Origin: Clostridiales bacterium
Lineage (GTDB): Bacteria > Bacillota_A > Clostridia > Saccharofermentanales > Saccharofermentanaceae
Direction: 5' to 3'
NCBI GenBank assembly: GCA_017649745.1
Contig: JAGCGE010000273.1
Span: 1 to 11,270, forward strand
DNA length: 11,270 bases
Shown: in pieces, positions 1,067-11,270 of the stretch
Layout of the letters: each line of letters starts with the position of its first letter
Numbering within the stretch: position 1 is the stretch's first letter
Translations under genes and position numbers: made by a program
Notes under the pieces: generated by a model
Told to the model about the DNA's origin: nothing
Database searches by the model: none
Seen by the model: only the letters and a program-made list of their open reading frames with translations

Positions 1067-2599
1067 TCAGATATCCTTAAGCATATTCTTGACCGTTTTC
1101 GCGAATTCCTCAGGACAGCCTGCGTGAACATAATGATCATAGCCTTCCATAAGAACATACTGACCGCCGATCTTCTCACAGTAATCGATCATGACAGGAC
1201 AAGGACAATTCCAGTCGTCAGAACCTGATATGAAAAACATCGGAACATCGAATTCTGTCTTAGTCTCAGAGAGATCCTCTTCAAGAAGAGGTTCCATGAG
1301 CTTGCCGCAATACTTCACGAATGAATCATAGCTTAAGATCTTGGTGAGCCACCTGAAGTCATCAGAACCAAGATATGGAGATACGATCGCATCAAGGACT
1401 GTGTGGCTGCTGTGCTCAGCCTTAAGATACTGGCCGGTAAAGCTACTCATCGTTGAGCCATCTTCAAGGTCACCTGTCGCTATTGCTTTCTCATAAGCCT
1501 TAGTCATCTCCGTTGTATCATCACCCTTAGCAGTCGCTCTTTTATAAGCTTCGTCATACTCAGCCTGAACAGCCTGAGACTGACTCACGAACTGACCGAT
1601 ACCAATGAATGCCGATACCTTATCAGAATGAGAATATACGTAACTGCAGCCGAGGAACGATCCGTAAGAGTGACCCATGATTATCACTTTCTCACACTTA
1701 AATCTGTCACGAAGATAGTCGACCATTCCGTCAACATCAGAGAGAGCCTGATCGAAATCTACTTTCTCGTTCGATGGATCATTATTAGCAAAGTAAGTCC
1801 TGCCGCAACCTCTCTGATCCCAGCATACGACAGTATACTCATCGATCAGATGATTCGTGAAAACATATGACATAGAACTGTCAGGACTACCGGGGCCTCC
1901 ATGAAGATAAAGGATAACCGGATTAGTCTTGTCCTCGCCTCTTATAAGAAGATACTGTTCCTGATCGTTGATATTCACATAACAAGACTCTTCTATTCCC
2001 TTATCATGATCGATCGGATGAGAAAGCCAGTTGATATTTCTTAATGCAACGATGCTTACGATCGGAAGGAGGATAAGGATAGAGAGTACAAGCACAACGA
2101 TCTTAAGAGCTTTCCTCTTCGTCTTCACTCCTGCTCTCTTCGCATGAGAACTTAAGATACCGATATGACCTATGCCGAAAATGATCGCAGAAAGGATCAT
2201 GAATATGTTAGCTGAATAGATACCCAGGAACAGAAACGCAACAACAGGAAGCGTAGCTCCCGCCACTGGAAAACCTGCGAAACTTGCGCACATATCCGCC
2301 ATTGTTTTCGAGCTCTTGAAATAACGGACCCAGAAAAGCTCATAGAGGATCATGAGGAGAGCAGCAAGTATGAGCCATCCAAGCCAGAGAGAATGAGGTC
2401 TAAAGTTCGTGCCCTTAAAGATCAGAGCCAGAACAACAAAAAGCACCTGCCCTGCCTTCTCGAAAATCTGAAGTATCCTGTTCTCGTGCTTTGAATATTC
2501 AGCGTGATCCTTAGGGCTGTTCTTGATCCAGATGATGTTAGGAACAAAGAGCATCAGAAGAAAGATCAGACCGACATAAGAAAAGCCAAGTTCTATCAT
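1067..2599 (-). CDS. Membrane-anchored alpha/beta hydrolase, prolyl-aminopeptidase (S33)-like
   Basis: This encodes 510 residues. The first ~190 contain about six hydrophobic membrane segments (roughly 4-25, 47-62, 70-90, two between 107 and 150, and 166-186), followed by an alpha/beta-hydrolase domain from about 205 to the end. Visible hydrolase motifs are HGGPG (233-237, oxyanion hole), WDQRGCGRT (260-268), the nucleophile elbow GHSYG with Ser311, a likely Asp462 in SGSDD, and His489 in GYDH, so the catalytic triad looks complete. HGGPG plus DQRG is the pattern of proline iminopeptidases and relatives, so an aminopeptidase or esterase acting at the membrane is likely; the substrate and the side of the membrane are not determined. 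I chose the ATG at 2599 (MIELGF), preceded by GGGGGTAGG. A longer frame with a TTG start at 2653 would begin upstream of the promoter -10. No clear terminator follows the gene. Confidence 0.85.
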   Translation of the reverse strand: MIELGFSYVGLIFLLMLFVPNIIWIKNSPKDHAEYSKHENRILQIFEKAGQVLFVVLALIFKGTNFRPHSLWLGWLILAALLMILYELFWVRYFKSSKTMADMCASFAGFPVAGATLPVVAFLFLGIYSANIFMILSAIIFGIGHIGILSSHAKRAGVKTKRKALKIVVLVLSILILLPIVSIVALRNINWLSHPIDHDKGIEESCYVNINDQEQYLLIRGEDKTNPVILYLHGGPGSPDSSMSYVFTNHLIDEYTVVCWDQRGCGRTYFANNDPSNEKVDFDQALSDVDGMVDYLRDRFKCEKVIIMGHSYGSFLGCSYVYSHSDKVSAFIGIGQFVSQSQAVQAEYDEAYKRATAKGDDTTEMTKAYEKAIATGDLEDGSTMSSFTGQYLKAEHSSHTVLDAIVSPYLGSDDFRWLTKILSYDSFVKYCGKLMEPLLEEDLSETKTEFDVPMFFISGSDDWNCPCPVMIDYCEKIGGQYVLMEGYDHYVHAGCPEEFAKTVKNMLKDI

Positions 2600-2626
2600 G
2601 TACCTACCCCCAAATACTAACTTTGA

Positions 2627-2656
2627 ACATTGTATCAATAAATCACAAAACAATGT
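2627..2656. repeat. Inverted repeat ACATTGT / ACAATGT between divergent genes
   Basis: Perfect 7-base arms at 2627-2633 and 2650-2656 are separated by 16 bases, about 23 bases centre to centre, or two helical turns. One arm overlaps the -10 of the minus-strand hydrolase gene; the other sits beside the AT-rich TATATT/TATAAA stretch (2656-2666) that is the likely -10 region of the plus-strand DUF3592 gene. The symmetric position would suit a dimeric regulator of both promoters. Chance is possible in DNA this AT-rich. Confidence 0.35.
2629..2637 (-). promoter_or_regulatory. Extended -10 promoter of the membrane hydrolase gene
   Basis: On the minus strand TGATACAAT provides a TACAAT -10 (2629-2634, five of six) with the TG of an extended -10 one base upstream (2636-2637). 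No good -35 stands at 17 bases, which is tolerated by extended -10 promoters. The predicted start of transcription (about 2622) lies upstream of the ATG at 2599 and supports that start codon. Confidence 0.45.
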
Positions 2657-3546: not shown

Positions 3547-3587
3547 GAAAACATAGAGGGTCAATGATCGATCCCAGGAAGACATGT

Positions 3588-3592
3588 GAGGA
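3588..3592 (+). promoter_or_regulatory. Ribosome binding site for the large lipoprotein
   Basis: GAGGA stands eight bases before the ATG at 3601. A GTG at 3586 in the same frame, with AGGA six bases before it, is the alternative; it would add five residues (MRNEY) and would not change the signal peptide reading. Confidence 0.5.
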
Positions 3593-3600
3593 ATGAATAT

Positions 3601-6033
3601 ATGAAGTGGATGAGGAAGATAGCCGCTGTGCTAGCGGTCAGTTTGTTGTTACCTATTTTCGCGTCATGCAATAAAAAAGCCAATCTTCAGGACAGCATCA
3701 TCGTCTCGAAAGATGATGTCTGGTATGATTCTACACGTTTTAATGTGATACCGCCTGAAGCAGGTTTTGATTACAAGATGGCTATGAAGAGCTACAGATT
3801 ATCAAACGACAGATTGTATATTACATATCAGAAGACAAATGCAGATATGTATTGGGATGTAACGACACTGCTGCAGATTTATGAATTGGACGGCAGCAGC
3901 AAGATCATCGAGATCGATTACCCTGAAAAAGGTGAAGATCTCATCTTAAGACCTGAAGTCCTCGTACCTAATGAAGACGGCAAGACCGGAACCATCATCG
4001 TTGAAAAGTCAAATGTCGGGATCATGGATTGGAAATATTACACATCTCAGATAGATCTCGAGACAGGTAAGGCTTCCGAACTGAAACAAGTTGATATCGA
4101 CGGAAACAACTATTCTATCCTCGAGGTAAGGCCTGCTGGAAAATACACCTGTTTCTACACGTCAAAGATCAATTCCAATGATCCGTATGTATACTTTTTC
4201 TATGAGGGCAACGAACTTCTTCAAAAGGTTGAAACAAAGGATATCATCGAAGGAGCCGAGTACAGTTTTATGCTTCTTGATGATTTCATACCTATACCCG
4301 ATTCAGATCAGATAATAGGCAAGTTTTATACAGGCGGCAGTCTTCTAAACTGCAGATTGGATCCTAAAGCAGGAACCATCTCTGATGTAAAGATAATGAC
4401 ACAAAAAGAGTATTTCGAGCAACTTAGATCAGATGACAGAAAAATCGACGAATCATCATTCTGTGCCACAGTTGAAGGTGACTTGATGAACGTCGGAACG
4501 CTAGGTGACATATCACTTTATGATCCTGATTCCGGCAATATAGAAACAGTTATTGACAGAAACGAATACTCACCGTTTTTCTCAGATTATTCTTTCACTG
4601 ATCTTACTACAGCAGAAGTATTATCACATAACGATAAAAGAACGATACTTATCTTTAAAACGGTCGATCCTATAACTTCAGAAGAAACTGTAAAAGTAAC
4701 GGTATTACAGAAGATGTCCGTTAATCCTCACGCAGGAAAAAAAGTCATGGAGATCGAGTCACCTGAATCTTGTTCCGCATATCTCTCTACTGCAATATAC
4801 ACTTTTAATGAAACAGATCCGGACTATCTGATCCGAGTCTGGAATAAACATAACCTGTTTAACAATGTACAAAATAATGTAAGCGATCAACTGCCTTATG
4901 TACAGTCATCCTATGCCTGTTATGCCGGTCTTCCGATAAAAGGCGTGAAGTTAGACGATATGATCGCAGAAGAACTCGCATCAGGAGATGAAGCTCCTGA
5001 TCTTATCCTTAATCTCAGGAACGAAAGAACAATGAGTGAAGAATTACTTCTCGATCTGTCAGAAAGTCTGGATCCCGATGTGAAGGCAAAGGTATACGGA
5101 AACATCGTAGATGCATGTAAATATAACGACAAACTCTACTTCATGCCGGTAAACGTCTTTGTGGATGGCATAGTCTGTCTTGAAGATGATCTTGATTCGA
5201 TAGATGCTGGTAAGACCGGATTCACATTCGAGACATATGACAGTTTCGTCAAGGGTCCCAACAACGGACAAGATCCGTATTACTACGAATGCTTGGATGA
5301 GATCAATGGCGGTGTTATCCGTTACGCTTTTATCGAATCATGCATCGATACTTATTCAGCAACTCAGGGTGACAAAGTGGATTTTGATACCGAGCAGTTC
5401 AGGACAGCATTAAAATACTATTTCGAAGAATACCCTGTTCAGGCCGTCAAGTTTGATGATCTCGAGTCCGAATACGAACCGATTCCTCAACCGAACGGTA
5501 ATTTCAGAAGGCTATCTTCTTACATTGATTATATCGATCTGTGCAAGAAAGGAAAAAAGAATTATGTCGTAATGGGAACTCCTTCTATAGAAGAACACGG
5601 TCCAAGATTCAGAGTCTCCGAATCAGTTTCTGTCTTTGCACATTCCGATGTCCAGGATGGTGCTAAAAGATTCCTGAATCATCTCATAGGAGGATCTTTC
5701 AAAAATGATCAGGATCTTTTCGAAGATATATGTATCAATAAAGAAGTCTTAGAATACGAACTCCCTATGCTAACGAAAAAGAACAATCGAAGATATTCTT
5801 ATCTGATAAACGACGGATGGCCTGCACAATATATCGATGTCAACATCGCGACTGAAACAACAGAAAACAATTTCCTTGACACGATGTCAAAAGTATCGAT
5901 ATACTCGCCGGAAGATCCGGACATAAGAACGATACTCGAAGAAGAACTCTTCACATACGGAAACAAAGATATTGACGAGATCATAGACATCATTAATGAC
6001 CGTGTATCAAAAGTCGTTGCCGAAAAAAGATAG
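3601..6033 (+). CDS. Large lipoprotein with C-terminal extracellular solute-binding-like domain
   Basis: This encodes 810 residues. The N-terminus MKWMRKIAAVLAVSLLLP with lipobox FAS-C (Cys23) indicates a lipoprotein on the outer face of the membrane. Residues about 30-375 are beta-rich with recurring strand-turn pieces such as LYITYQKTN, LLQIYELDG and ISLYDPDSG, suggesting a beta-propeller-like fold; I cannot prove that. Residues from about 385 onward follow the sugar-type (family 1) solute-binding pattern: STAIYTFNETDPDY, then LASGDEAPDLILN, then LLLDLSESLDPD, then YNDKLYFMPV, then VVMGTPSIEEHGP, then DGAKRFLNHLIGG, and a tail of the EE..tYgnkdidEII kind. Ordinary members have 400-550 residues, so the front half is an extra module. 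No permease or ATPase for uptake lies beside it, so it may work as a sensor or pair with a transporter elsewhere. Ligand unknown. Confidence 0.8.
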   Translation: MKWMRKIAAVLAVSLLLPIFASCNKKANLQDSIIVSKDDVWYDSTRFNVIPPEAGFDYKMAMKSYRLSNDRLYITYQKTNADMYWDVTTLLQIYELDGSSKIIEIDYPEKGEDLILRPEVLVPNEDGKTGTIIVEKSNVGIMDWKYYTSQIDLETGKASELKQVDIDGNNYSILEVRPAGKYTCFYTSKINSNDPYVYFFYEGNELLQKVETKDIIEGAEYSFMLLDDFIPIPDSDQIIGKFYTGGSLLNCRLDPKAGTISDVKIMTQKEYFEQLRSDDRKIDESSFCATVEGDLMNVGTLGDISLYDPDSGNIETVIDRNEYSPFFSDYSFTDLTTAEVLSHNDKRTILIFKTVDPITSEETVKVTVLQKMSVNPHAGKKVMEIESPESCSAYLSTAIYTFNETDPDYLIRVWNKHNLFNNVQNNVSDQLPYVQSSYACYAGLPIKGVKLDDMIAEELASGDEAPDLILNLRNERTMSEELLLDLSESLDPDVKAKVYGNIVDACKYNDKLYFMPVNVFVDGIVCLEDDLDSIDAGKTGFTFETYDSFVKGPNNGQDPYYYECLDEINGGVIRYAFIESCIDTYSATQGDKVDFDTEQFRTALKYYFEEYPVQAVKFDDLESEYEPIPQPNGNFRRLSSYIDYIDLCKKGKKNYVVMGTPSIEEHGPRFRVSESVSVFAHSDVQDGAKRFLNHLIGGSFKNDQDLFEDICINKEVLEYELPMLTKKNNRRYSYLINDGWPAQYIDVNIATETTENNFLDTMSKVSIYSPEDPDIRTILEEELFTYGNKDIDEIIDIINDRVSKVVAEKR

Positions 6034-6079
6034 TCGACTAGAACAGATAATAAAATAATTAACCACCCCTTTCCCAAAA

Positions 6080-6115
6080 GTAAACCTCGGCGAATATTTT
6101 TTCACCGAGGTTTAC
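6080..6115 (-). terminator. Intrinsic terminator of the ABC/DUF1854 operon (possibly bidirectional)
   Basis: Arms at 6080-6094 and 6101-6115 pair over 15 positions around a 6-base loop. In minus-strand RNA one pair is U-G wobble and the rest are Watson-Crick, and the stem is followed directly by UUUU; it begins 13 bases after the stop of the last operon gene. In plus-strand RNA the same position is a C-A mismatch and the T-run (6126-6130) comes only ten bases later, so termination of the lipoprotein gene is probably weaker. Confidence 0.85.
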
Positions 6116-6128
6116 GCTGAGAATCTTT

Positions 6129-8288
6129 TTATTGCATCTGCGCAGTATATAATCCGTAATAGATTCCTTTTCGTTCCAGAAGTTCGCTGTGGGTTCCGAT
6201 CTCAGCGATGCTGTGGCCGTCTATTACCATGATCCTGTCTGCATTCTTAAGAGTCGAAAGTCTGTGCGCGATCGCAAATGTCGTCTTACCGCTCGTAAGT
6301 CTGTCGAGAGCCTTCTGGATCATGAACTCACTTTCCGTATCAAGGCTTGCCGTTGCCTCATCAAGGATGAGGATCTTAGGATCAGTCAGAATCGCTCTTG
6401 CTATGGCGATACGCTGACGCTCACCTCCGGAAAGCGTGTATCCCTTCTCACCTACATAAGTGTTATAACCATCAGGAAGTTTACTTATGAACTCGTGGGC
6501 GTTGGCTAACTTCGCTGCTCTGATTATCTCACCTATACTAGCATCTCTTTTCGAAAACCTGATGTTATCGATGATCGTACCTGAGAACAGGAACGTCTCC
6601 TGAAGGACGACGCCAAGCTGTGAGTGATATGACTTCTGAGAGATGTTCTTCATATCGCAGCCGTCAACCAGGATACTTCCGTCGTCTGTCTCATAAAGTC
6701 TCATGAGAAGGTTAATGAGAGTCGACTTACCAGTTCCTGATGCACCGACTATACCGATCATCTCGCCCGGCTTGATCACCGCATTAATGTCTTCCAGAAC
6801 AGGCTGATATGACTTGTAACCGAATGTTGCGTGATCGAATGTGATCTCACCTTTTATCTTGACATCGGAAGCCTCAGGAGACTCCTCCTTGACCTTCTGA
6901 GCAAGAACATCATAGATACGCTCAAGGCTGGATTTAAGTCTAGATACTTCACGAGGAAGTCTGCCAAGCCAGCCGACATACTGGAATAAGAGAAGCGTAT
7001 AGGAGATGAACTGATAAAGTTCACCTGATGTCATCGTATTTCCAAGAACAGAACGACCGCCAAAATAGACGACGATTACAAGTCCAAGACCCATGAAAAA
7101 CGACATCAGAAAATCGAATAATCCCCAGAAACGTTCGTTACGCATCTGAACTTTTGCGAATTCTCCGGAGAGTACTTTGAAGCGCTCTGCTTCATCATTT
7201 TCCTTACCGTAACTCTTCACGATCCTCATACCTGAGATAACGTCCTGAAGGTCACTAGCGACATCGTCATTCTTCCTGTTCTGAACATGGAAGATCCTGC
7301 TTATCGTCTTTCTTAATGAAAGCATCATGACTGCCACAAACGGAACGATCGAGAGTGTAAGAAGCGCGAGTTTCCAGTCAAGGACGATCATGAATACCAT
7401 ATCCCATATGAAGATAAAGAGAATGGCAAAGAGGTTACAGAATACATCCGCCATGAATTCGGAAATGAATCTTGTATCCTGCGTGATCCTGTTTAAAAGT
7501 TCACCGGGACGTCTGTCGTTGATGAAGCTTAGCGGCAGCTTCTGATACTTTTCGAAAAGCTGCTTTCGAAGATCGGCAGAGATCTTGGAACCGAGCTTAG
7601 CCGTCGAAACGCTCTTTGCGATGTTGATGAACACGATACTGACACTGAAGGTGAACATAACAGCAAGGAACATCATGGCTGTACTTATGTGACCGTTCTT
7701 CTCAAGAACATTATTGATGAGACGCTTCTGAACTTCAGGGTTCAAGAGCGTTACGACTGCAACTGCGACCATGAGAAGGAATACACCGAAGAATTCTTTT
7801 CGATATGGTCTTATGAACTCACGAAGTATGTGATAGAAACCGCCGTTACCCGTGCACTTCGAGCACGTTCCTGTTCCAGGGATAACGCGTCCGCACTTAG
7901 GACAGATCTTCTCATATTCGCTGCTTTCAACTTCTTCGAATCGGCCTGATATTAAGATGTTGATACCACGAGCAATGTAAGCATATCTGCTCATATGCTT
8001 CGACGAGTAGTGAGCGATGATCATGTCTTCGCCATCTTTACTGAGAGTCAGGATTCCGCCTCCGACACCAGGCTCAGCTGTCGCCTTCTGATAATCCTTT
8101 ATATCATAAGAAGTCTTCTTGTCTCCCTCGAAAACATGGATCTTCTTAGTTGTAACGACGACGAAAGAATCGTCGCTCCATTTACCGTTCTCATCTATAT
8201 CAACAGGTACCGAATAATAGATCTTCTCGTTTTCGGAAAGGTCTACGGAACCTTCTATAGCAGGAGGTAGTTTATAACGTAGAATCAT
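6129..8288 (-). CDS. ABC half-exporter with N-terminal PH-like domain and zinc ribbon
   Basis: This encodes 719 residues, longer than the usual ~580 for a fused membrane-ATPase exporter. Residues about 1-117 form a soluble domain (SFVVVTTKKIHVFEG, then YDIKDYQKA, then GGGILTLSKDGEDMIIAHYS) with the strand pattern of PH/GRAM-like modules; this fold call is inference. CPKC-x9-CSKC follows (Cys129, 132, 142, 145), a zinc ribbon. The membrane domain runs from about 155 to 450 and the ATPase from about 478: Walker A GASGTGKST (515-523), Q-loop Gln563, signature LSGGERQR (619-626), Walker B ILILDE (639-644), H-loop His675. All catalytic residues are present. AAGGAT stands about four bases before the ATG, and the stop of the DUF1854 gene is 15 bases upstream. 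As the third gene of the operon it probably pairs with the half-exporter at 8862-11141. Type IV/exporter-class export is known for the fold; cargo is unknown. Confidence 0.9.
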   Translation of the reverse strand: MILRYKLPPAIEGSVDLSENEKIYYSVPVDIDENGKWSDDSFVVVTTKKIHVFEGDKKTSYDIKDYQKATAEPGVGGGILTLSKDGEDMIIAHYSSKHMSRYAYIARGINILISGRFEEVESSEYEKICPKCGRVIPGTGTCSKCTGNGGFYHILREFIRPYRKEFFGVFLLMVAVAVVTLLNPEVQKRLINNVLEKNGHISTAMMFLAVMFTFSVSIVFINIAKSVSTAKLGSKISADLRKQLFEKYQKLPLSFINDRRPGELLNRITQDTRFISEFMADVFCNLFAILFIFIWDMVFMIVLDWKLALLTLSIVPFVAVMMLSLRKTISRIFHVQNRKNDDVASDLQDVISGMRIVKSYGKENDEAERFKVLSGEFAKVQMRNERFWGLFDFLMSFFMGLGLVIVVYFGGRSVLGNTMTSGELYQFISYTLLLFQYVGWLGRLPREVSRLKSSLERIYDVLAQKVKEESPEASDVKIKGEITFDHATFGYKSYQPVLEDINAVIKPGEMIGIVGASGTGKSTLINLLMRLYETDDGSILVDGCDMKNISQKSYHSQLGVVLQETFLFSGTIIDNIRFSKRDASIGEIIRAAKLANAHEFISKLPDGYNTYVGEKGYTLSGGERQRIAIARAILTDPKILILDEATASLDTESEFMIQKALDRLTSGKTTFAIAHRLSTLKNADRIMVIDGHSIAEIGTHSELLERKGIYYGLYTAQMQ

Positions 8289-8303
8289 ATTATCCTTTAC
8301 GAT

Positions 8304-8840
8304 TTACAGGAATAAATCGAGCATCCTCCTTTCCTTCTTCGTAAGCTTATCAACGTCCTTGATCTCGAATCTGTTCTCATCGACATCCTTGATGATAAGC
8401 CTCGTATCTGAGAGCTTAGATACTGCATTAGATCCCATGTTGATCGCAAATCTGCATTCACCCTTATCTGTTTCAACATGGAAATATGCGTAGCCGTACT
8501 CGTCTTTTATCTCGTAGATCTTGCTGATGACAGGAGTAAAATAACTTAGTCGAAGCTGCTCATTGATCAAAGTCTTTGTCTCTTCGCTCATGGCGTTCAG
8601 ATCTTCGATTATTCCGATCTCCTTATCACCGTTTACGTGATCTCTTATCGACAGATACTTATCAGCATCCGAGAAAGGGAAAAGCCTTACGACTCTTACT
8701 CTCTTATAGTGCTCGCCGTTATAGTCGAGACTTAAGAAACCACCCGCAGTCTTCGTGAATTTCTCATTCTTGGTGATGATATTTGTAGCAGTCATTTCCT
8801 CTGCTTTTTTCTCATAAATGTTAAGTGTGTTGTCTGACAT
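8304..8840 (-). CDS. DUF1854 family protein, accessory to the flanking ABC exporters
   Basis: This encodes 178 residues without signal peptide or membrane segment, so it is likely cytoplasmic. From about residue 34 the sequence follows DUF1854: GGFLSLDYNGEHYKRVRVV, RLFPFSDADKYLSI, EIGIIEDLNAMSEET, LSYFTPVISKIYEIKDEYG, HVETDKGECRF, DTRLIIKDVDENRFEI and a C-terminal KERRMLDLFL. DUF1854 proteins are known from databases next to ABC exporters, in betaproteobacteria under the name cyanophycin metabolism-associated; the biochemical role is not established. About 30 N-terminal residues extend beyond the family core. AAGGAGG (8847-8853) six bases before the ATG is the strongest ribosome binding site of the operon, so this protein may be made in good amount. 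It sits 21 bases after one exporter gene and 15 before the other, which strongly suggests a joint complex; a regulator or substrate-presenting subunit is my inference. Confidence 0.88.
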   Translation of the reverse strand: MSDNTLNIYEKKAEEMTATNIITKNEKFTKTAGGFLSLDYNGEHYKRVRVVRLFPFSDADKYLSIRDHVNGDKEIGIIEDLNAMSEETKTLINEQLRLSYFTPVISKIYEIKDEYGYAYFHVETDKGECRFAINMGSNAVSKLSDTRLIIKDVDENRFEIKDVDKLTKKERRMLDLFL

Positions 8841-8861
8841 GTTTTCCCTCCTTCTTCCTCA

Positions 8862-11141
8862 TCAGAATTCAGTCTGAAGTGCCAGTGACTTATTCTGAAG
8901 TTCGAGCAGTGTCTTATAGATACCGCCATCGATATTACTTAATTCTTCTTCTGTTCCTTCCTCGACTATACGGCCGCCATCAATAACGATGAGTCTGTCC
9001 GCATCGCGAAGAGTAGAAAGTCTGTGCGCGATCGAAAGCGTTGTCCTTCCCTTAACGAGATAATTAAGAGAATGCTGTATCGCTTTTTCGGTCTGTGTAT
9101 CAACACTTGCAGTTGCCTCATCAAGAATGAGGATCTTAGGATCAGCTAAGATCGCTCTAGCAATTGAGATCCTCTGCTTCTCACCACCTGAGAGGTCCTT
9201 ACCTGAAGCACCGATTATGGTGTCGTAGCCGTCAGGAAGCTTACTTATGAATTCATGAGCACTCGCAAGCTTAGCCGCACGGATGATATCTGCACGTGAT
9301 GCATTCTCATTACCGTAAGCGATGTTCTTCGCAACTGAACCCATGAAGATGTAAGTATCCTGAGATACCATCGCAACGTTCCTTCGAAGGTCGTTAAGAG
9401 CCAGATCTCTTACATCAGTTCCGTCGATCTTTATCGAGCCTTCATTAACGTCGTAAAGTCTCGAGATGAGGTTAACGAGAGTCGATTTACCAGCACCTGA
9501 TCTACCGACGATTCCGAGCATCTCACCTTCATTTATCTTGATATTAAGCTCCTTAAGAACAGGTCTTCCAACCTGGTATCCGAACGTAACGTTATCAAGC
9601 TCTATAACACCGCGTGGGTCCGTAAGTCTAACAGGATCCTTAGCTTCCTGGATCTCAGGTATCGCATCCATGATCTCGAAAAGACGTTCAGCGGAATTGA
9701 TGCTGTCTGCCCACATCCTGAATATCCATGCGAAGAAGTTCATCGGACCATTAAGCTGCATTACATAACCAACGAAAGTGATGAGTACACCAAGTTCGAT
9801 CTCATGTGTCTGGAGAACGAAGAATACACCAACGAGCCAGATCCAAATTCCTGAAACTTCCTGAACGAGATTGTATAAGATCTCGAACTTGTTACGGAGC
9901 TTCGCGATATCGATCTCAGCATCACGAAGATTATCACTTGGTCCCTTAAACCTCTTCATCTCTTCATCCTGCTGGCCGAATGCCTTAACGACACGCGCAC
10001 CTGAAAGGTTATCGTTAGCCTTACCGTTCACCGCTTTTTCAGCACGGTGTCTCTTACCTGCCAGGATCCAAAGACCCGGACGAAGCTTAACAGTCATGAA
10101 GACGAGAAGCGGCAGGAGGATGCATGCGATGAGCGCCATCTTCCAGTTCAGATTGAACATGACGATAAACGTGCTTATGATGGTTATTCCGTGGACGAAT
10201 ATCATCGGCAAGCCGTCGATAAAGAAGTTCCTTACCCTGTCAGAATCGCTTAGTACTCTTGTCATGAGACCGCCTGTCTGCTTGTTTACGAAAAAGCTCA
10301 GCGACAGTCTGCTCATGGCGTCAAATACATCGTTCTTGATATCCCTTATCGCGCTGCTCGAAAGCTTCGCCATAACGAATATCTGCAGGTAGTTTGACAG
10401 CGCCTGAGTAAACCTTACTATAATCATGACGATCGCTACAACAAGAAGCGCGAGTCCGATGTTCTCACCAAGACCGAAAGTACTTAAGTAGTCCTTATCT
10501 TTTTCGAGGACATGATCGAAAAGCACCTTACCGATGAGGTATGGCCACGCGATGTTGATCGCACCGTTTACTGTGTAAGTTAAGATCAGCACTAACACCT
10601 GCACTTTGTATTTCAGAAAATACTTTAATGTCCTTCCGAATATCGAGCGCTTGTTCTTCTTCTGCTCAACAGGTTCTTCAGTCTCCTCTTCAGACTCCTC
10701 TTCTACTTCGAGTTCGCCACCGTGCAGGAATCCCTTGAGCTTTCTGAAAAGGACGTTCATCTGTTCCTGATAGCGATTGGTGAAGCAAGCGATATTAACA
10801 TCGCTTCCGTTATATTCCCCCAATAAAACATTAGACCCGACGTAAACATCGAGCCTAATGTGCGCTAATTTATCAATGTCGTAAATCTCAACATCGTATT
10901 CGCCGGGCTCATCGTCTATCAGACCGTTTCCTGTATCCGCATTTCTGAAAAGGTGAACTGTGTTAGCTGGAAGTTCCATAGTAAGAACTGCCACCTTATC
11001 ATTAGTAACTACTACATGACCCTTAATGTAGTTGCCTTCAATAGACAAGTCTATAGGACTATGGATCAAGATGTCCTTGTCAGTGATCTTCTGATCCTTA
11101 AGCTTGTCCAAGACTTTCCTGGTCAATCTTGAATCCTTCAT
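8862..11141 (-). CDS. ABC half-exporter with N-terminal PH-like domain and acidic linker
   Basis: This encodes 759 residues and is the first gene of the operon. Residues about 25-135 are soluble and beta-rich (GHVVVTNDKVAVLTMELP, YDVEIYDIDKLAHIRLDVYV, VLLGEYNGSDVNIACF), resembling the front domain of the partner exporter in strand pattern. A Glu-rich linker (about 142-158) follows, then a basic KKNKR and the membrane domain from about 165 to 480. The ATPase starts near 510: Walker A GRSGAGKST (546-554), Q-loop Gln594, signature LSGGEKQR (650-657), Walker B ILILDE (670-675), H-loop His706. No zinc ribbon is present. The start is set at 11141 (MKDSRL), where AGAGGGG is eight bases upstream; an in-frame ATG at 11168 has no ribosome binding site and would lie about 12 bases from the predicted transcript start. 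Exporter activity is known for this fold; its cargo is unknown. Confidence 0.9.
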   Translation of the reverse strand: MKDSRLTRKVLDKLKDQKITDKDILIHSPIDLSIEGNYIKGHVVVTNDKVAVLTMELPANTVHLFRNADTGNGLIDDEPGEYDVEIYDIDKLAHIRLDVYVGSNVLLGEYNGSDVNIACFTNRYQEQMNVLFRKLKGFLHGGELEVEEESEEETEEPVEQKKNKRSIFGRTLKYFLKYKVQVLVLILTYTVNGAINIAWPYLIGKVLFDHVLEKDKDYLSTFGLGENIGLALLVVAIVMIIVRFTQALSNYLQIFVMAKLSSSAIRDIKNDVFDAMSRLSLSFFVNKQTGGLMTRVLSDSDRVRNFFIDGLPMIFVHGITIISTFIVMFNLNWKMALIACILLPLLVFMTVKLRPGLWILAGKRHRAEKAVNGKANDNLSGARVVKAFGQQDEEMKRFKGPSDNLRDAEIDIAKLRNKFEILYNLVQEVSGIWIWLVGVFFVLQTHEIELGVLITFVGYVMQLNGPMNFFAWIFRMWADSINSAERLFEIMDAIPEIQEAKDPVRLTDPRGVIELDNVTFGYQVGRPVLKELNIKINEGEMLGIVGRSGAGKSTLVNLISRLYDVNEGSIKIDGTDVRDLALNDLRRNVAMVSQDTYIFMGSVAKNIAYGNENASRADIIRAAKLASAHEFISKLPDGYDTIIGASGKDLSGGEKQRISIARAILADPKILILDEATASVDTQTEKAIQHSLNYLVKGRTTLSIAHRLSTLRDADRLIVIDGGRIVEEGTEEELSNIDGGIYKTLLELQNKSLALQTEF

Positions 11142-11149
11142 TTCATATA

Positions 11150-11156
11150 CCCCTCT
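11150..11156 (-). promoter_or_regulatory. Ribosome binding site fixing the start of the first exporter gene
   Basis: AGAGGGG on the minus strand lies eight bases before the ATG at 11141. Nothing similar precedes the in-frame ATG at 11168, where the upstream bases read CTTCCATTATTCGAAA. Confidence 0.7.
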
Positions 11157-11186
11157 GTTTTGTTTCATTTTCGAATAATGGAAGTG

Positions 11187-11195
11187 ATTGTAACA
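11187..11195 (-). promoter_or_regulatory. Extended -10 promoter of the ABC/DUF1854 operon
   Basis: On the minus strand TGTTACAAT gives TACAAT (11187-11192, five of six) plus the TG of an extended -10 (11194-11195). A TTGAGC lies only 12 bases upstream of it, too near to serve as -35, and no good hexamer stands at 16-18 bases. The predicted start near 11180 leaves a leader of about 40 bases. Confidence 0.5.
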
Positions 11196-11233
11196 CTAAT
11201 GTTTGCTCAATGATAGTAAGAATTATTTAATTT

Positions 11234-11251
11234 TTGATTATTCATTATCAA
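11234..11251. promoter_or_regulatory. Palindrome upstream of the ABC/DUF1854 operon, possible operator
   Basis: TTGATTATTCATTATCAA is symmetric at 14 of 18 positions, with perfect 5-base outer arms TTGAT/ATCAA. It lies about 45-60 bases upstream of the operon -10. Read on the minus strand it contains TGATAAT followed by ATAATCA, which loosely resembles Fur-family operators. The surroundings are very AT-rich, so chance similarity is a real alternative. Confidence 0.3.
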
Positions 11252-11270
11252 TACTTTTGAAATGCTCGAA

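Follow-up and report, generated by a model that had tools for sequence, protein, structure and literature searches.

The DNA examined here raises the question of whether a DUF1854 protein, encoded between two ABC half-exporter genes (ABC1 upstream, ABC2 downstream), belongs to one machine with both of its neighbours, and what such a machine would carry. Throughout, the window is the whole stretch of 11,270 nucleotides that was analysed. The best explanation of the observations, to which we assign a probability of roughly two in three, is a heterodimeric ABC exporter in which DUF1854 serves as third subunit, located in the cytosol on the side of ABC1. This reading draws on the gene order, on the separate clades formed by ABC1 and ABC2, on gene fusions, on intact ATPase motifs, and on a PH-like predicted fold. 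Complex, stoichiometry, transport direction, cargo, and gating of the triad are what we infer from these data.

Layout and signals of the locus

ABC1, DUF1854, and ABC2 are three complete open reading frames in that order on the minus strand (Table 1). The same-strand arrangement with its two short spacers is as the sequence-only reading had claimed. The same holds for its placement of the DUF1854 gene between two complete half-exporters: a PF00664 match followed by a PF00005 match, both above the cut-off, was observed in ABC1 as well as in ABC2, and PF08909 lies between them. The window DUF1854 protein scores 132.6 bits against PF08909 (cut-off 26.8 bits, E 1e-38) and covers profile positions 1-130 of 130. 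Judged from the sequence, the ATG at 11141 is a better ABC1 start than the longest-ORF start at 11168, because it is preceded by a Shine-Dalgarno-like motif and because, counted on the longer form, the matches of most relatives start around residues 7-13.

Table 1. Features of the three-gene locus in the window.
Feature	Coordinates	Strand	Remarks
Promoter-like site	11222..11251	-	-35/-10-like, 10/12 matches
Shine-Dalgarno-like AGAGGGG	11150..11156	-	8 bases before ATG at 11141; by eye
ABC1 half-exporter	8862..11141	-	759 aa from ATG at 11141 (768 aa from ATG at 11168)
ABC1 front domain	10719..11141	-	PH-like by homology to the ABC2 front domain; itself not folded
ABC1 transmembrane domain PF00664	9741..10595	-	Pfam
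ABC1 nucleotide-binding domain PF00005	9108..9557	-	Pfam; six motif residues intact
Spacer ABC1-DUF1854	8841..8861	-	21 bases
DUF1854 protein	8304..8840	-	178 aa; PF08909 on residues 45-177
Spacer DUF1854-ABC2	8289..8303	-	15 bases
ABC2 half-exporter	6129..8288	-	719 aa
ABC2 front domain	7947..8279	-	Residues 4-114; PH-like predicted fold
ABC2 zinc ribbon	7854..7904	-	Cys 129, 132, 142, 145
ABC2 transmembrane domain PF00664	6978..7784	-	Pfam
ABC2 nucleotide-binding domain PF00005	6348..6797	-	Pfam; six motif residues intact
Terminator-type hairpin	6080..6115	-	Short U tail; also behind convergent gene 3586-6033

One promoter and one terminator had also been proposed for the three genes. A promoter-like site is indeed situated upstream of ABC1, but eight such sites occur in the region 5500-11270 compared to 10.9 in shuffled sequences. 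As this is not above the number expected by chance, the claim of a single promoter was dropped. The proposed terminator is a strong hairpin with a 15-pair stem, and the region 6070-6130 folds at -30 kcal/mol compared to -9.4 kcal/mol in shuffles (z -8.8), with none of 200 shuffles reaching an equal value. The structural part of this claim thus stands, but the inner stem is followed by no more than four U, and the hairpin is absent from the output of a terminator scan of the window. Due to the short tail and the missed call, termination of transcription at this site is rated only as likely.

The convergent plus-strand gene that ends at the same hairpin encodes an 815-aa protein with a lipoprotein-like start, for which neither a Pfam match at E 0.01 nor a tblastn match near other triads was obtained. 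Elsewhere in the window (1067-2653, minus strand), an alpha/beta hydrolase is encoded, the N-terminal part of which is long and hydrophobic.

Recurrence of the triad and fusions of DUF1854 to ABC1

A scan of species genomes with a DUF1854 protein alignment yielded 128 relatives, and the best 80 loci were analysed. The order ABC1-DUF1854-ABC2 on the same strand was observed in 75 of these 80 loci, which argues against a chance arrangement. Four of the 80 are contig-end cases, with L038 and L039 ending before or just inside ABC2 and L046 and L050 beginning after ABC1. In L078, two genes that by eye are acetyltransferase- and methyltransferase-like (8541-9998) are located between ABC1 and DUF1854 of an otherwise preserved triad. 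Wherever an upstream ABC gene is visible at the places sampled, it precedes DUF1854.

The distance between the two genes varies. In case of L136, L138, and L139, which are pairs of a single ABC gene and DUF1854, the longest ORFs of both genes overlap by 17 bases. In L154, L159, L164, and L165, four triads from the sample of 200 genomes of one family described below, about 280-850 bases separate the ABC1 stop codon from the DUF1854 match, so that tight spacing is not always kept. These four intervals all differ and share no common peptide. Those of L159 and L165 contain an unrelated open frame, by eye DJ-1/PfpI-like and membrane-protein-like, respectively.

DUF1854 was found in 20 of 398 genomes of a Bacillota sample. 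All of its 27 places adjoin an ABC gene and comprise 16 triads (L124, L126, and L132 running into contig ends), 10 pairs (L122 and L133 likewise), and one remnant. In a sample of 200 genomes from one family, 22 genomes contain DUF1854 at 23 places, i.e., 22 triads and one pair; L083 is common to this and the Bacillota sample. A second family contributed four DUF1854 genomes out of 58, all with triads (L082, L084, L166, and L167). The trait is patchily distributed. The association of DUF1854 with ABC exporters, on which the sequence-only reading relied, is borne out by an adjacent ABC gene at 27 of 27 and 23 of 23 places; DUF1854 is not found as often away from such genes.

Triad and pair occur together in six of the 20 DUF1854 genomes of the Bacillota sample (G017, G045, G059, G098, G132, and G269), and for this reason the two forms may carry different cargo. 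The remnant L142 (9555-10322) consists of ABC1 and DUF1854 parts in a genome that also holds a triad and a pair. L141 (9619-10099), counted as a triad, is a decaying copy in which DUF1854, spread over two frames, lies between two ABC genes that are still open. A Gemmatimonadota replicon (L143) carries the pair form. A plasmid search with the DUF1854 of L117 returned one Gemmatimonadota replicon, and the same search with that of the window returned no match. A DUF1854 match above the cut-off was also observed in the archaeal control genome of Sulfolobus acidocaldarius.

About 105 DUF1854 sequences with genomic context were available. DUF1854 is reported in Pfam to occur at the C-terminus of ABC proteins. 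In-frame fusion of DUF1854 to the ABC1 C-terminus was observed in 10 of 78 judgeable loci (the 80 loci except for L046 and L050), and a separate gene in the other 68; in L056 the ABC1 part itself is split. When a database was searched with the DUF1854 portion of a fused protein, 21 long proteins were obtained, 20 of which are ABC-DUF1854 fusions, 19 of the ABC1 type and one of the pair type (P0192). The remaining one, P0191, has a DUF1854 end behind an outer-membrane assembly/POTRA protein and was set aside as a probable assembly chimera. A fusion to ABC2 was found neither among the 78 judgeable loci nor among the 20 database fusions. Since ABC2 is equally near, this bias argues for a position of DUF1854 at the ATPase end of ABC1, as far as can be judged from fused sequences.

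The history of the fusion was traced on a tree of 47 rows, 14 fused (including six of the 20 database fusions) and 33 separate, which, as the ABC tree described below, was built by a quick method and contains several long rows of unsure place. Six changes of state were counted on it, equal to the minimum forced by the starred branches; an earlier tree with fewer fused rows had two. Read at face value, the tree needs several independent origins of the ABC1-DUF1854 fusion. Some of the changes may be losses, as in case of L058, an unfused row inside the main fused clade. Fusions seen in single metagenomes may be assembly errors, and loss of a stop codon between close genes can explain a fusion without selection. 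Conserved gene order and repeated fusion together uphold the view that the three genes form one unit.

These data also bear on the possibility that DUF1854 acts separately as a chaperone or regulator, controlling assembly or ATPase activity without any role for the cargo, with the PH-like domains serving dimerisation or membrane docking. Its existence as a separate gene in most judgeable loci would be in agreement with such a function. So would its structure, since no profile kinship with the front domains (hhalign probabilities 0.1-0.9) and no clear match of its predicted fold in structure comparison was obtained (AlphaFold2 model of the window protein with pLDDT 81 and pTM 0.52). Repeated fusion to the ABC1 C-terminus, however, is more readily reconciled with a fixed subunit than with a factor that acts transiently, and we consider a separately acting DUF1854 rather improbable.

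The two half-exporters and their front domains

The two half-exporters of the window share 33% identity. In a tree built from 46 rows, the 23 ABC1 rows are set apart from all others by one branch, and so are the 15 ABC2 rows (SH-aLRT 100 and 99, respectively); eight pair-type ABCs fall outside both clades. Within this sample, the separate clades fit a heterodimeric form that would have arisen once. The Walker A Lys, the signature Ser and Gly, and the Walker B Asp and Glu are intact in 79 of 79 ABC1 and 80 of 80 ABC2 rows. The switch His is likewise intact in all 79 ABC1 rows and in 79 of the 80 ABC2 rows, with Asn in the remaining one. As all six positions are intact in both window halves, no degenerate ATP site is indicated.

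Both halves carry an N-terminal front domain. According to profile comparison, the front domains of ABC1 and ABC2 are homologous (hhalign probability 99.1, E 1.8e-18). The predicted fold of the ABC2 front domain consists of seven strands closed by a C-terminal helix and, as modelled, is PH-like. The ABC2 front domain of the window remains below the cut-off of Pfam bPH_3 (14.1 of 23 bits), and matches to this family at E up to 1 were obtained for 19 of 49 front-domain members, the best at 2.9e-5. The four zinc-ribbon cysteines are invariant in all 49 aligned ABC2 and pair-type rows, 42 of which match DZR at E up to 1.

The zinc-ribbon pattern occurs in 80 of 80 ABC2 rows compared to 43 of 79 ABC1 rows. 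It is absent from ABC1 of the window, in which the front domain is followed by an acidic linker. Due to its lack in 36 ABC1 rows and its retention in ABC2, the two halves appear to be losing symmetry. All eight full-length pair-type ABCs of the Bacillota possess the zinc-ribbon pattern as well as a homologous front domain; seven of these fronts were used in alignment A3, with L128 omitted. The N-terminal domains that had been called sensor-like are present and are recast as two domains homologous to each other, PH-like in predicted fold, behind which a zinc ribbon follows in ABC2.

An exporter of general type, for multiple drugs or for lipids, the activity of which is merely modulated by front domains and DUF1854, has to be weighed here, since the membrane and ATPase parts of ABC1 and ABC2 resemble MsbA-like and multidrug half-exporters, and the patchy spread would fit an accessory efflux trait. 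Extra conserved cytosolic parts would be unusual for drug pumps, and in the present case they are kept across divergent loci. The six motif residues are, moreover, intact in both halves, in contrast to TM287/288, a well-studied, drug-exporter-like bacterial heterodimer with one degenerate ATP site according to PMC7756269. On balance, a general exporter of this kind is regarded as an unlikely explanation.

Cargo, proposed mechanism, and comparison with known systems

The best NCBIfam models for all three proteins, NF052233 (ABC) and NF052234 (DUF1854), are named as associated with cyanophycin metabolism. ABC1 and ABC2 reach 516.9 and 530.2 bits with NF052233 (curated cut-off 880), and DUF1854 reaches 90.2 bits with NF052234 (curated cut-off 150). 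Nine proteins from seven other Bacillota loci remain below these cut-offs as well. No match to the cyanophycin synthetase CphA was found near DUF1854 in 106 loci, and none above the cut-off in 50 triad genomes, which represent 50 of the 80 first-scan loci and are relatives of the window. The earlier remark that no cyanophycin gene is in view can thus be extended to these loci and genomes. Cyanophycin was rejected as cargo in this lineage, for which it is unlikely.

In the Bacillota sample, CphA above the cut-off was detected in 118 of 398 genomes (two candidates per genome scored in full) compared to one of the 20 with DUF1854 (G397, on another contig); the chance of at most one such genome among 20 is 0.0072. 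Avoidance of CphA by DUF1854 genomes was nevertheless rejected, because the difference is largely due to kinship: in one triad-bearing family, none of 100 genomes has CphA above the cut-off, irrespective of the presence of DUF1854.

A connection to cphA elsewhere rests on the NCBIfam names and on PMC10687191, in which a type of cphA cluster comprising two copies of cphA plus a gene for an ABC transporter is described for several taxa from activated sludge. The main text of PMC10206079 on cyanophycin clusters contains no word beginning with ABC or DUF. A transporter of the NF052233/NF052234 type that handles cyanophycin or its dipeptides, as the top-scoring family names and the cluster type from activated sludge would suggest, is highly improbable in view of three scores far below the curated cut-offs and the CphA counts at the loci, in the triad genomes, and in the DUF1854 genomes, the last being largely a matter of kinship.

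The genes around the triads give little indication of the cargo. The most widespread neighbour family (ORFs of at least 70 aa) reaches 10 of the 80 loci, many of which are short, and the five window neighbours have no tblastn match at 1e-8 in 106 loci. Small ORFs were searched for in those flanks of 81 sequences that provide room (66 upstream and 65 downstream, each up to 1.5 kb long), and the best families were seen in 8 of 66 and 5 of 65 regions, respectively. A location of the cargo gene elsewhere in the genome is possible. In case of the leaderless bacteriocin enterocin DD14, export needs the PH-domain proteins DdE and DdF, and the cluster contains the ABC transporter DdHIJ (PMC8657885). 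PH domains thus have a precedent in the export of peptides, which renders a cargo of this kind plausible. The cargo would most likely be a peptide or peptide-like compound; a lipid would suit PH-like domains equally well.

With the heterodimeric exporter with a DUF1854 subunit as the preferred reading, the following mechanism is proposed. The operon would stand alone and encode one heterodimeric ABC exporter, in which the paralogous ABC1 and ABC2 would together make up a pump whose two ATP sites both work. Both halves would bear a cytosolic PH-like front domain, on ABC2 with a zinc ribbon behind it, and DUF1854 would be bound to the C-terminal (ATPase) end of ABC1 as a third subunit, soluble and fixed in place. 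The cytosolic face of one pump would thus comprise one DUF1854 as well as two PH-like domains. The role of these parts would be to bind or hand over a cargo that is recognised intracellularly, most probably a peptide or a peptide-like compound, and to couple this to ATP use.

More tentatively, one may speculate on a distinct exporter class, in which an obligate cytosolic antechamber made up of two PH-like domains, zinc ribbon, and fixed DUF1854 serves as a receptor through which a single type of intracellular peptide or polymer gains entry to a heterodimeric pump, both ATP sites of which are active. If so, substrate choice would be conferred on an ABC exporter in a new manner, and cyanophycin handling elsewhere would amount to one specialisation within a larger family.

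Public family names already imply that DUF1854 and ABC proteins are linked; what is new is the heterodimeric form free of cyanophycin. In the literature covered, which excludes most subscription papers and all preprints, no paper naming DUF1854 or PF08909 was found, and titles and abstract starts within the same scope gave no PH or zinc-ribbon front domain on an ABC exporter. Among the systems nearest to the triad are NF052233 and NF052234, as the ABC profile spans front, membrane, and ATPase parts of both ABCs and the partner family is the same. The triad differs by scores under the cut-offs, by two diverged ABC halves, and by the lack of a detected cyanophycin synthetase. Relatives in Clostridia-type genomes without this synthetase free the DUF1854 family from a misleading name.

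The ABC-DUF1854 pairs (L121, L122, L128, L130, L131, L133, L135, L136, L138, L139, and L143 of the Gemmatimonadota) share with the triad an ABC gene in front of DUF1854, but contain a single ABC gene, situated outside the ABC1 and ABC2 clades, and thus presumably form homodimers. Bacterial heterodimeric ABC exporters include TmrAB and BmrCD in addition to TM287/288. The latter resembles the triad in consisting of two different half-exporters, and TM288 appears among the PDB entries listed as sequence matches to ABC2; the triad departs from it by intact motifs in both halves and by the added front domains, zinc ribbon, and DUF1854. In export of enterocin DD14 by DdE, DdF, and DdHIJ, PH domains likewise act with an ABC transporter (PMC8657885). 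There, however, the PH domains are proteins of their own, and the cluster includes the genes for the cargo.
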